In this document: piece by piece, positions 16,337 through 19,559 of the stretch
Position numbering within the stretch: the stretch's first letter is position 1
Layout of the letters: each line of letters opens with the position of its first letter
Assembly: GCA_009668945.1 (NCBI GenBank)
Contig: SBEH01000002.1
Location: 1-64,000 of the forward strand
DNA length: 64,000 nt
Source: Actinomycetota bacterium
GTDB taxonomy: Bacteria; Actinomycetota; Coriobacteriia; Anaerosomatales; Anaerosomataceae
Direction of reading: 5' to 3'
The notes under the pieces: generated by a model
The model's input: the letters and a program-made list of their open reading frames with translations, nothing else
What the model was told of the DNA's origin: nothing
Database searches by the model: none
Program-made: the position numbers and the translations under genes

Positions 16337-17278
16337 CTACTTGATCTGGCGCAGCAGGCTCGAGGCCAGATCCCGGACCGCCTCGCGGACCTCGGATGGC
16401 GAGTCCACTTCGGCGAGGCCCAGGTAGGCGACGACCCGTCGCGCGATCCAGCCGAGCGACTGGAACGGCACGTCGGCGACGCTGACTCCGTCGGGCGCGG
16501 TCTGGAGTGTGACGCCCGGCCAGTGCCGGGCGTCCGGCAACAGCGCGCCGTCGCGGAAGCGGATCCGGGCCGTCTGCAGCGTGCCTGCATCCGGCGTGAC
16601 TGCGGTCGCGACTTCCGCCGGTGGCTCGAAGAAGACCCCCGTGTGTTCGATCGCTCGCATTCGATCAAGCCGGAACACGCGCTCCTGTCCGGCGGTCTCG
16701 CACCAGGCGACGAGATACCAGATGCCCATCCTCTGTACTAGCGCCCAGGGATGCAGTATCCGCTCGGAGATGCGCCCCGTCGATCCGGTGTAGTACGCCA
16801 CACGCAGCATCTCGCGTTCCTCGATAGCCGACGCGAGCTTCGCGTACGTTTCCGCCGCTCCGCCCGGGGCTGCACCGGCACGGACGGTGTGCTCTAGATC
16901 CTCGGGGGAGACCGCCCCCGAAGAAACCGTTCTCAGCTTCTCCCGTAGCGGCGAGTCGGAGGCGTAGCCGGCCACCTCGAGCGCGGCGTTCAGCGCGCGA
17001 GCCTCCGCGCCGGTGAGCTTGAGCGGGCGTTCGAGACCCGGCGGGTCCATGTAGACGGAGACCACGTCTCCATCGATGTCGAGATCGACCATCTCGAACG
17101 GCGTGAAGGGCGGGATGCCGCACATCGTGAGCGTTGTCAGGTCCGCCGCGACCTCCTCGACGCTGCAACCCACAGCGTGTGCGAGTTCGGCGAGCGGAAT
17201 GCTGTCACCCTTGTGCAGGTGCGGCAGGAGCGCGAGAAGGCGTCGCGCTCGTGTCGCCGAGTCTAGGTGTCTAGCCAT
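16337..17278 (-). CDS. pafC: WYL-domain transcriptional regulator, PafC-like
   Basis: This 313-residue protein has an N-terminal winged-helix region (LLALLPHLHKGDSIPLAELA), a WYL domain near residues 145-235 (MGIWYLVAWCETAGQERVFRLDRM) and a C-terminal WCX extension. In mycobacteria PafB and PafC form a complex that activates the RecA/LexA-independent DNA-damage response. The gene overlaps the upstream pafB by 8 bases in the arrangement typical of actinobacterial pafBC, which supports the assignment over other WYL regulators. A proteasome neighbourhood, where pafBC sits in mycobacteria, is not present here. Confidence 0.85.
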   Translation of the reverse strand: MARHLDSATRARRLLALLPHLHKGDSIPLAELAHAVGCSVEEVAADLTTLTMCGIPPFTPFEMVDLDIDGDVVSVYMDPPGLERPLKLTGAEARALNAALEVAGYASDSPLREKLRTVSSGAVSPEDLEHTVRAGAAPGGAAETYAKLASAIEEREMLRVAYYTGSTGRISERILHPWALVQRMGIWYLVAWCETAGQERVFRLDRMRAIEHTGVFFEPPAEVATAVTPDAGTLQTARIRFRDGALLPDARHWPGVTLQTAPDGVSVADVPFQSLGWIARRVVAYLGLAEVDSPSEVREAVRDLASSLLRQIK

Positions 17279-18245
17279 GCGCTTCGATCACGCTTCGCAG
17301 TCCCGCCGAGAGAGCGGCCACCAGCCCCTCGGGCTCGACCGCGTGCAGGCCCGGGCCCTCATCGACGATCCAGGAGGCAAGTCGCGTGATGTTCGCGGCT
17401 GCCACCGTCCAGACGATTGATCCGTCCGAGAGGCGGTCGATCGAACCGCGACCCCGGGCCAGGCTTTCGGCGCGCCACGCGATGTCCGGCTCGAATCGGA
17501 TCCTCACGTCTACCGCTGTCGCTCCGAACTGGAATGGCAGACGCTCGTGTTCGCGAACGTCGAAGCCATCAGGGCGCTCGAAGTCAGGAGTCCTGGGCGA
17601 CCTCGGGTTGACATCGAGATCGGCTATCCGGCTAACCGCGTACGTTCTGATAGCGTCCGCTTCGCAGTCCCGGCCGGCTACGTACCAGACGCCCTCCCGG
17701 AAGAAGACTCCGTAGGGATCGACCGTGCGCCTCCGTTCGTTTCCGGCTGCGTTGGTGTAGTTGAAGGTGACCGTCTTGCGCATCTGGACGGCTTCTGCGA
17801 GCGCTCTCGCGTTCAGGCCCTGACCGGCAGAGGTATCGTCGTCGGCCTGCGTGGTCGCCATCGGGCCCTGGTGTACGTCGGAGACCAGCTTCCCGAGTGC
17901 CAACGCGAGGTCTGAGTGGAACGGAAAGGCCGGGTCGTCCGCCATTGCGGCCGCCACCGCTCGCATCGCCGACAGCTCGTCGGCAGAAAGATCGATAGGA
18001 CGGGCGTAGGTCGCGTCGGCATCGAGACAGTACGCCTCGGTGGAGCCGTCCGAGGTCACTTCGATAACGAGTCCCGCCGCTCGAAGGGCGTCCTTGTCGC
18101 GCTCGAACATGCGGATGAACGCGACGTCGCTCTGTCCATCTGCGTAGCCGAGACCAGCAGCCCGGCACTCCTCGGCGGTGACCGCTCGCGGACTGGACGC
18201 AAGGTAGAGTGCTAGGTTCACAAGACGTTCGGCGTCGCTGGACAC
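17271..18245 (-). CDS. pafB: WYL-domain transcriptional regulator, PafB-like
   Basis: This 324-residue partner of PafC begins with a helix-turn-helix region (SSDAERLVNLALYLASS, then MFERDKDALRAAGL). It has a central WYL domain with the segment from GVWYVAGRD to YAVSRIADLDV (residues about 185-210) and a C-terminal WCX domain. The GTG at 18245 is chosen because AAGGAG precedes it at about 7 bases; the longer frame reaching 18473 would run through the predicted 6C-like RNA. It is the first gene of a two-gene operon. The leader contains the terminator of that RNA, so pafBC transcription may partly depend on read-through or on a promoter between 18245 and 18320. Confidence 0.87.
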   Translation of the reverse strand: MSSDAERLVNLALYLASSPRAVTAEECRAAGLGYADGQSDVAFIRMFERDKDALRAAGLVIEVTSDGSTEAYCLDADATYARPIDLSADELSAMRAVAAAMADDPAFPFHSDLALALGKLVSDVHQGPMATTQADDDTSAGQGLNARALAEAVQMRKTVTFNYTNAAGNERRRTVDPYGVFFREGVWYVAGRDCEADAIRTYAVSRIADLDVNPRSPRTPDFERPDGFDVREHERLPFQFGATAVDVRIRFEPDIAWRAESLARGRGSIDRLSDGSIVWTVAAANITRLASWIVDEGPGLHAVEPEGLVAALSAGLRSVIEAHG

Positions 18246-18319: not shown

Positions 18320-18414
18320 CGGAAAAACCAGGCGCGCTGGGGGTGCGCACCTGGTTCTGTAGGGCAGCGATTCCCGCCCCTGAGGGGGAGGAGAGGGCGG
18401 GTCGCACGTCCCGC
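18320..18414 (-). ncRNA. 6C-like small RNA (two C-rich-loop hairpins)
   Basis: Read on the minus strand, two successive hairpins display C-rich loops, the defining layout of the actinobacterial 6C RNA family. Hairpin 1 (18373-18401) has a perfect 7-base-pair stem CCCGCCC/GGGCGGG and a 15-base loop containing TCTCCTCCCCC. Hairpin 2 (18326-18356) has AACCAGG/CCTGGTT, a C-A mismatch and GCGC/GCGC, with the loop ACCCCCA, and runs into TTTTT, so it doubles as the terminator. A TACAAT box at 18419-18424 would start transcription near 18412-18414, giving about 95 nucleotides, close to the mycobacterial 6C RNA B11. The C-rich loops could pair with Shine-Dalgarno sequences. The family assignment is by structure and needs a covariance-model search. 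Confidence 0.75.
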
Positions 18415-18418
18415 AGAG

Positions 18419-18424
18419 ATTGTA
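18419..18424 (-). promoter_or_regulatory. -10 box for the 6C-like RNA
   Basis: TACAAT on the minus strand lies 5-7 bases upstream of the first G of the predicted RNA. No good -35 is present at 16-18 bases; TTGCGG occurs only 31 bases upstream. Confidence 0.45.
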
Positions 18425-18548
18425 GCAACGCTCGTGCCAGAGGGCTATGCGTTTCCCGCAAGTTCCTATGCATGCGCGCGGCGGATTAGCGTAGCGGTTG
18501 CCGTGATCTGTCAGGGGCGATACAACAATGGGGACGAGAGGGGGACCG

Positions 18549-19559
18549 ATGAGCGACTCGGAAGTGCAGATTGCATCGCCGGGCGCAGCGCCGGACGTGA
18601 GTGAAGAGCCGCCTTCCGCTGGAGGTCCGAAGCGAGGTATCGGCAAGCCGCTGCGCATCCTCGGATGGCTCCTGGCGTTCGGTGCGCTGGCCGCCCTTGT
18701 CGCATGGGGTGTCTACACGCTGAGAGGTCTGAACGTAACGCGCACCGCCGAGGCCGCCATCGCCGAGGCGTCGGGCATACTGGACGAGGCCGAGGACGAG
18801 CTTCTCGTTGTAGACGAGGCGGTCCAGGTCGAGATCTCCGCCGAGGTGGCGTCGCAGACAGCGGAGGCCGCCGTTCTCGCCGAAGACGTGCGTGCCAGGA
18901 CGCTCGAGGCATCGGGGATCATCGCGGACGCGCGCGCCGACCTCCCGGAAGAGATGCTCCCGCTGGCAGACGCGCTCAAGGAGAGCGCGGACGCACGCGC
19001 CGAGATGATGCAAGTCGCTCCGGTGATCCTCAAAGCGAGTCAACAGGCTGCAGTTGCTATAGGAAGCGCTGATGCCGCCGTGGCCGAGATCAAGGCGGCC
19101 GAGGACCTGAGCGGTCAAGCTGTCGCGGAGTTCAACAAGCACACGTCAGCGGGGGTGAAGGCCTCAGACGACCTGTCGGTGCAGGCCGAAGGCCGGCTCA
19201 AGACCGCACAGTCCCTGCTGGCCACCGCTACCGCCTCCTTCCCTGGCGCTGACTTCAGCGCGTTCGGGGCGTACGTCGACGCCAAGATCGGGCTCATCGG
19301 GATGGCCAAGGAGATCGACGCGCTGTGGCTTTCGGGGAACGTGTCGGGCTCGAACTCGAAGCTCACGGCGTACAACCAGCGCGATGCCGAGGTGGTGGCG
19401 ATGGCACAGGCGCTTCCGGCTTCGATTCGCGATCCGATCGCGGACGCGTACAATGCGGCGACCGCCGACGCGTCGACGCGGTACTTCGAGGCGCGGGAAC
19501 GGGCGCGGACGGCAGGAGAGAAGGCGGCAGAGCTCAGGCAGACGAGTACCTCGGAGTAG
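18549..19559 (+). CDS. Membrane-anchored Ala-rich helical protein, unknown function
   Basis: This 336-residue protein has a Pro-containing cytoplasmic tail of about 40 residues, one signal anchor near residues 44-65 and a long extracytoplasmic region dominated by Ala, Glu and Asp with heptad-like spacing, predicted to be mostly alpha-helical or coiled coil. I recognise no catalytic motif. The ATG at 18549 follows GAGGGGG; an ATG 7 codons upstream lies before this site. The next gene begins 8 bases after the stop, so the two probably form an operon and their membrane products may interact. Confidence 0.7.
   Translation: MSDSEVQIASPGAAPDVSEEPPSAGGPKRGIGKPLRILGWLLAFGALAALVAWGVYTLRGLNVTRTAEAAIAEASGILDEAEDELLVVDEAVQVEISAEVASQTAEAAVLAEDVRARTLEASGIIADARADLPEEMLPLADALKESADARAEMMQVAPVILKASQQAAVAIGSADAAVAEIKAAEDLSGQAVAEFNKHTSAGVKASDDLSVQAEGRLKTAQSLLATATASFPGADFSAFGAYVDAKIGLIGMAKEIDALWLSGNVSGSNSKLTAYNQRDAEVVAMAQALPASIRDPIADAYNAATADASTRYFEARERARTAGEKAAELRQTSTSE

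Follow-up and report, generated by a model that had tools for sequence, protein, structure and literature searches.

A predicted sigma-54-dependent small RNA with two C-rich loops, conserved at two loci in the Anaerosomatales

The DNA analysed here, which we refer to as the window, comprises 64,000 nucleotides of an Actinomycetota bacterium of the family Anaerosomataceae (assembly GCA_009668945.1, contig SBEH01000002.1, positions 1 to 64,000). Its minus strand carries, upstream of pafB, a small RNA with two C-rich hairpin loops. Comparative sequence analysis supports a structured RNA with its own terminator, which occupies two conserved loci in the order Anaerosomatales and follows a predicted -24/-12 promoter at a fixed distance. 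We consider it probable that the RNA is a sigma-54-dependent, trans-acting small RNA (sRNA), fired under stress via an NtrC-type regulator, whose C-rich loops block G-rich Shine-Dalgarno regions. The element consists of the following features:

18322 to 18413, minus strand: small RNA of ~92 nt, ends predicted; supported by fold, covariation and homologs in the order
18362 to 18412, minus strand: hairpin 1 with the stems GGG/CCC (outer), GCGA/UCGC and CCCGCCC/GGGCGGG
18381 to 18394, minus strand: C-rich loop 1, UCUCCUCCCCCUCA, complementary to UGAGGGGGAGGAGA
18323 to 18356, minus strand: hairpin 2 plus U5, a terminator hairpin, with the C-rich loop ACCCCCA at 18338-18344
18424 to 18439, minus strand: predicted sigma-54 promoter, TGGCACGAGCGTTGCT, with -24/-12 elements; a perfect match and the only one in the window

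The first-pass annotation had described two GC-rich hairpins with C-rich loops, the second ending in U5, and both are present in the sequence. On the minus strand hairpin 1 reads GGG...GCGACCCGCCC-UCUCCUCCCCCUCA-GGGGCGGGAAUCGC..CCC (18412-18362), and hairpin 2 reads AACCAGGUGCGC-ACCCCCA-GCGCGCCUGGUU followed by UUUUU (18356-18323). The locus folds with a minimum free energy of -51.9 kcal/mol and a z-score of -5.3, and none of 200 shuffled sequences was equally stable; the trimmed predicted transcript gave a z-score of -5.5. A simple terminator scan returned no match at the RNA locus, and a tRNA was the sole match of an Rfam scan of the whole window at the gathering threshold. Two matches that appeared on the locus at E ≤ 10, a viral packaging model and a fragment of a Pseudomonas sRNA, were dismissed as chance. 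A peptide encoded by the RNA is unlikely because loop lengths differ by single bases among copies.

A DNA search of 40 relatives yielded clear homologs in about 20, some with two. The first, model-free alignment of 23 sequences had a consensus of 24 pairs, 12 of which showed double, i.e. compensatory, changes. A covariance model was then built on the RNA alone with the promoter left out. It matched in 67 of the 69 genomes of the order (Anaerosomatales, Coriobacteriia), mostly exactly twice in each, whereas 229 genomes of the class from outside the order gave no match. Among 93 distinct copies 97.5% of the cells were paired and both sides had changed in 22 of the 24 pairs, which was reached by 0 of 500 shuffles, while alignments slid as a control were paired to 38-56%. 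Covariation extended to all 11 pairs of hairpin 2. The 93-copy alignment was fitted to the covariance model and therefore the slid controls and the model-free alignment carry most weight. Conservation and covariation of the pairs exclude chance as the source of the fold. All homologs come from genome assemblies, and many of these assemblies are metagenome bins. In one of these assemblies additional C-loop hairpins follow the pafBC-side copy (L122:3001-3199, genome G038), a tandem or extended RNA.

The loops themselves are characterized by their C-runs. The longest run in loop 1 was six Cs in 60 of 96 copies and seven in 18, and the loop of hairpin 2 had a run of six in 64 of 96. Six is thus the modal longest run of either loop across the family, compared to five Cs in each loop of the window copy. 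The earlier proposal of an independent small RNA adjoining pafB, with C-rich loops in two hairpins, is borne out.

Directly upstream of the RNA CTGGCACGAGCGTTGCT constitutes a perfect -24/-12 element. The genome contains only two perfect TGGCACG-N4-TTGCW sites and each precedes one copy of the RNA. Across the order, 82 of the 93 matches of the RNA model had TGGCA-N6-TTGC exactly and a further 8 differed from it at one position. The motif lay at a fixed distance of 10-13 nt upstream of the RNA, where 0.001 would be expected; the background was 3 sites in 901,856 positions. Of the 70 copies that were not used in model building, 60 had the exact motif and 7 were one off. Columns -26 to -10 are conserved within otherwise unconserved DNA, with 2.0 bits at GGCA and TTGC and at most about 0.2 bits in the upstream flanks; because the columns of these 90 copies were anchored on GGCA-N6-TTGC, the eight positions have 2.0 bits by construction and the unanchored counts (82 and 8 of 93) are the real test. 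The predicted start of the RNA lies about 12 nt after the C of the -12 element, at the base of the outer stem. The pattern TGGCAC-N5-TTGCW with its invariant GG/GC spacing is that of a sigma-54-dependent promoter.

The sequence TACAAT, which had been put forward as a promoter box, is indeed present at 18422-18417, some 95 bases ahead of the point where the U-tract ends. That it forms the -10 box of an ordinary sigma-70 promoter is nevertheless highly improbable: the columns at its position are nearly unconserved (0.02-0.5 bits) next to an invariant TTGC, and a simple sigma-70 scan found no consensus match at the locus. TACAAT is not conserved in relatives and merely overlaps the sigma-54 site. 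Thus the conserved promoter of the RNA is, by prediction, the sigma-54 -24/-12 site.

When 84,980 named genomes were searched with the combined pattern of promoter and RNA, most of the contigs retrieved bore the label Coriobacteriia or Actinobacteria, and several of these were Anaerosomatales contigs; we accordingly treat the order as Anaerosomatales (OPB41). Matches in Ensifer, Pirellula, acidobacterial, acidimicrobial and Bacteroidales contigs and in two others look like chance or coding sequence.

A sigma-54 promoter calls attention to the sigma factor and its activator, and in 2011 Actinobacteria were described as lacking sigma-54 (PMC3162934). RpoN (PF04552) was matched in 66 of the order's 69 genomes; the three without a match are drafts. 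Nearly every genome has one rpoN. The protein possesses all three sigma-54 domains and the RpoN box ARRTVAKYRE. In the window's genome the rpoN operon continues with a PAS histidine kinase and an NtrC-type regulator with the GAFTGA motif. The latter is the only strong match to a sigma-54 activator in this genome with 239 bits, compared to 21-31 bits of three weak ones. Thus RpoN and a GAFTGA activator, on which a sigma-54-dependent promoter relies, are encoded in the same genome as the RNA. In another family of the class (f19) strong RpoN matches were present in 23 genomes (e.g. G112, G120, G142), some with two copies, and the RNA is absent there. In the proposed sequence of events sigma-54 RNA polymerase would wait at the -24/-12 promoter, the partner histidine kinase would phosphorylate the response regulator encoded beside rpoN under some stress, and the phosphorylated regulator would fire transcription of the RNA.

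In eight genomes of the order the more relaxed pattern TGGCAY-N5-TTGCW occurred at four to seven sites per genome, compared to zero to five for the reversed pattern. Because of the latter number single sites are weak evidence; what counts is recurrence at orthologous places. One such site lies about 100 bp before clpC in seven of the eight genomes (G000:C20:59179, i.e. L226, and L209, L219, L220, L228, L231 and L238). Another is located directly after the rpoN/kinase/activator operon and before a small membrane protein in all eight (G000:C11:189259, i.e. L203, and L198, L201, L212, L213, L215, L232 and L242); in the window's genome this site also precedes ccdA. At L211, L214, L216 and L224 sites precede a small secreted protein that has a His-rich segment and contains a TPVCAMPEC-like motif, and in one genome a site precedes a site-2 protease. 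The predicted regulon with clpC and the small membrane proteins suggests a proteotoxic or protein-quality response or an envelope stress response.

The neighbourhood of the RNA in the window comprises three genes:

17271 to 18245, minus strand: pafB (WYL and WCX domains; Pfam), the first gene downstream of the RNA
16337 to 17278, minus strand: pafC (HTH_PafC, WYL and WCX; Pfam)
18528 to 19559, plus strand: divergent gene of unknown function without Pfam match, a conserved neighbour of copy 1

Copy 1 is situated just upstream of the DNA-damage regulator pafBC on the same strand, in the window roughly 75-125 bp before pafB. In about 50 loci pafC keeps a constant distance of +1.03 to +1.19 kb to the RNA; the synteny on this side rests on the pafC positions in relatives and on the window sequence. 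A counterpart of the plus-strand gene is divergent from the RNA in many relatives. Between 18440 and 18528 the plus strand carries a GGTTGCC...TACAAC-like sequence that is also conserved in the aligned copies and probably serves the divergent gene as its sigma-70 promoter. In about 38 loci copy 2 and pstB converge, the distance to the end of pstB usually being 14-170 bp; the second copy in the window's own genome likewise adjoins pstB in this orientation. Downstream of copy 2 there is no conserved gene on the same strand. We take the two copies to be ancient paralogs carried by the Anaerosomatales.

The arrangement at copy 1, same strand, short distance and constant spacing to pafC, would also suit a sigma-54-driven cis-acting leader or attenuator of pafBC instead of a free RNA. 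We regard this as unlikely. The RNA ends in a full terminator ahead of pafB, and in the window the interval between the two contains a promoter-like CGCTAGAAT. Moreover, the paralog, whose promoter and fold are the same, runs into the 3' end of pstB, and no conserved gene follows on its strand. Thus a free-standing RNA accounts for both loci, and a pafBC leader accounts for one only. The constant vicinity of copy 1 to pafBC would also suit a further reading, as the folds of the WYL and WCX domains of PafBC resemble RNA-binding ones and the regulator has been proposed to have an RNA ligand (PMC6789036). The RNA might then act by binding a protein, either as the nucleic-acid ligand of PafBC or, in view of its C-rich loops and the preference of Rho for C-rich RNA, as a Rho decoy. 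This appears even more doubtful than a leader. Rho sites are long and unstructured, while the C-runs of this RNA are confined to tight hairpin loops. As to PafBC, no WYL gene lies near copy 2 in the sequence stretches examined and overexpression of 6C RNA did not induce DNA-repair genes (PMC6789036).

The first-pass annotation had likened the RNA to 6C, a short RNA of Actinomycetota (RF01066; B11 in mycobacteria). As far as the layout is concerned this holds. Like 6C, the RNA consists of two hairpins whose loops hold about six Cs, and the second hairpin is the terminator; the loops would be able to reach G-tracts at ribosome-binding sites, as described for B11 (PMC10470900). The Rfam 6C model, the check that the annotation itself had named, did not corroborate membership. 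At the gathering cut-off of 47 bits 0 of the 69 genomes of the order scored, the best match having 39 bits and an E-value of 9e-4 (G065:C88); the window copy had no match even at E ≤ 10, nor did eight loci of the family at E ≤ 1. On the other hand, of the weak matches below the threshold in the order, about half coincide with the RNA under study, and a control with Corynebacterium glutamicum was likewise below the cut-off, indicating that the threshold is strict. Because of these two results a distant kinship with 6C is conceivable. The RNA may accordingly be a diverged actinobacterial ortholog, an Anaerosomatales 6C that gained sigma-54 promoters, which would leave its action the same and change its filing. 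We rate this as possible yet rather unlikely, though the best placed of the alternatives. The pafBC and pstB loci differ from the Ms1 RNA link of mycobacterial 6C (PMC9569102), and simple C-loop hairpins can arise repeatedly. Further differences from 6C are the invariant sigma-54 promoter, the two fixed paralogs and an extra outer GRGC/GCYC stem. We class the RNA as acting in the manner of 6C without assigning it to the family. For a C-loop RNA of the 6C kind sigma-54 control is new.

How would such an RNA act? Both loops are complementary to G-tracts and to GGAGG. We computed target complementarity on 400 kb of the genome plus the window, and pairing with loop 1 at ≤ -17 kcal/mol was predicted for 7.5% of the ribosome-binding/start regions compared to 1.3% of internal coding segments (345 predicted genes). 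For B11 of Mycobacterium abscessus, a 6C RNA, it was shown experimentally that either of two C-rich loops brings about repression when it base-pairs to a G-tract located at the ribosome-binding site (PMC10470900). By analogy, the two C-rich loops would pair with the G-rich Shine-Dalgarno regions of many mRNAs and block their translation. Base-pairing of the loops with G-rich ribosome-binding sites is thus plausible, with candidate targets deduced from complementarity, among them amtB-, ilvC- and hppA-like genes. Several observations weigh against the proposed explanation as a whole. The enrichment of loop 1 pairing is expected from Shine-Dalgarno sequences alone and hence names no target; it is almost automatic for any RNA that contains CUCC. 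Two of the 69 genomes searched have no detectable copy of the RNA, and three matches of the covariance model lack a sigma-54 site (L014, L123 and a partial second match in L122). Finally, no repeated dyad that might be a binding site of the activator stood out clearly above shuffles in 82 upstream regions. All in all, the most likely interpretation is an antisense RNA that is induced by stress and acts in trans on G-rich ribosome-binding sites.

Each half of this proposal has precedents elsewhere. Exposed C-rich stretches mask Shine-Dalgarno sequences in RoxS/RsaE, IsrR, LhrC and sX13; as they are described, these RNAs differ from the Anaerosomatales RNA in structure, phylum and control. Qrr and CrcZ are sigma-54-dependent sRNAs of Gram-negatives, as are GlmY and GlmZ, whose genes are, as is predicted for that of the present RNA, directly under a -24/-12 promoter and an activator. 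They are found in Proteobacteria, are unrelated to it in sequence and fold, and none is known to have two C-rich loops. In GlmY the sigma-54 promoter additionally overlaps a sigma-70 promoter (PMC3162934).

A further parallel emerged from the scan of the genome collection, which also returned three contigs of Bdellovibrionia. In 60 Bdellovibrionia genomes, those around one matching contig (L151), a sigma-54 site followed by TCCCCCC within 10-40 nt was present in 24 (loci L250-L273), while the reversed pattern occurred in none of the 60. In most of these loci the C-run is accompanied by U8-9 and a terminator hairpin whose loop is C-rich. Rfam gave no match in three of the loci, and in the literature searched we found no description of a sigma-54-controlled C-rich RNA of Bdellovibrionia. 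The Bdellovibrionia loci share with those of the Anaerosomatales a TGGCA-N6-TTGC promoter and, behind it, a short C-rich RNA whose terminator has a C-loop. In contrast to the Anaerosomatales RNA, that of Bdellovibrionia has about 55 nt, one hairpin and a 5' single-stranded C-run and belongs to another phylum, i.e. the two are likened by pattern and not by homology. Whether sigma-54 control of C-rich sRNAs that mask ribosome-binding sites recurs across phyla as a broad translation brake, with a two-paralog family in Anaerosomatales and a one-hairpin family in Bdellovibrionia, is in our view evenly balanced.

Taken together, a whole actinomycetotal order carries rpoN, though the phylum was once described as devoid of sigma-54 (PMC3162934), and the two copies of a 6C-like RNA are among the most conserved predicted sigma-54 targets of this order. 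That the same pairing of sigma-54 and a C-rich RNA is seen in Bdellovibrionia suggests that the link is no accident. The Anaerosomatales RNA would tie the puzzling C-loop RNAs of Actinomycetota to a defined, ATP-gated transcription switch, and their role becomes testable in cultured strains.
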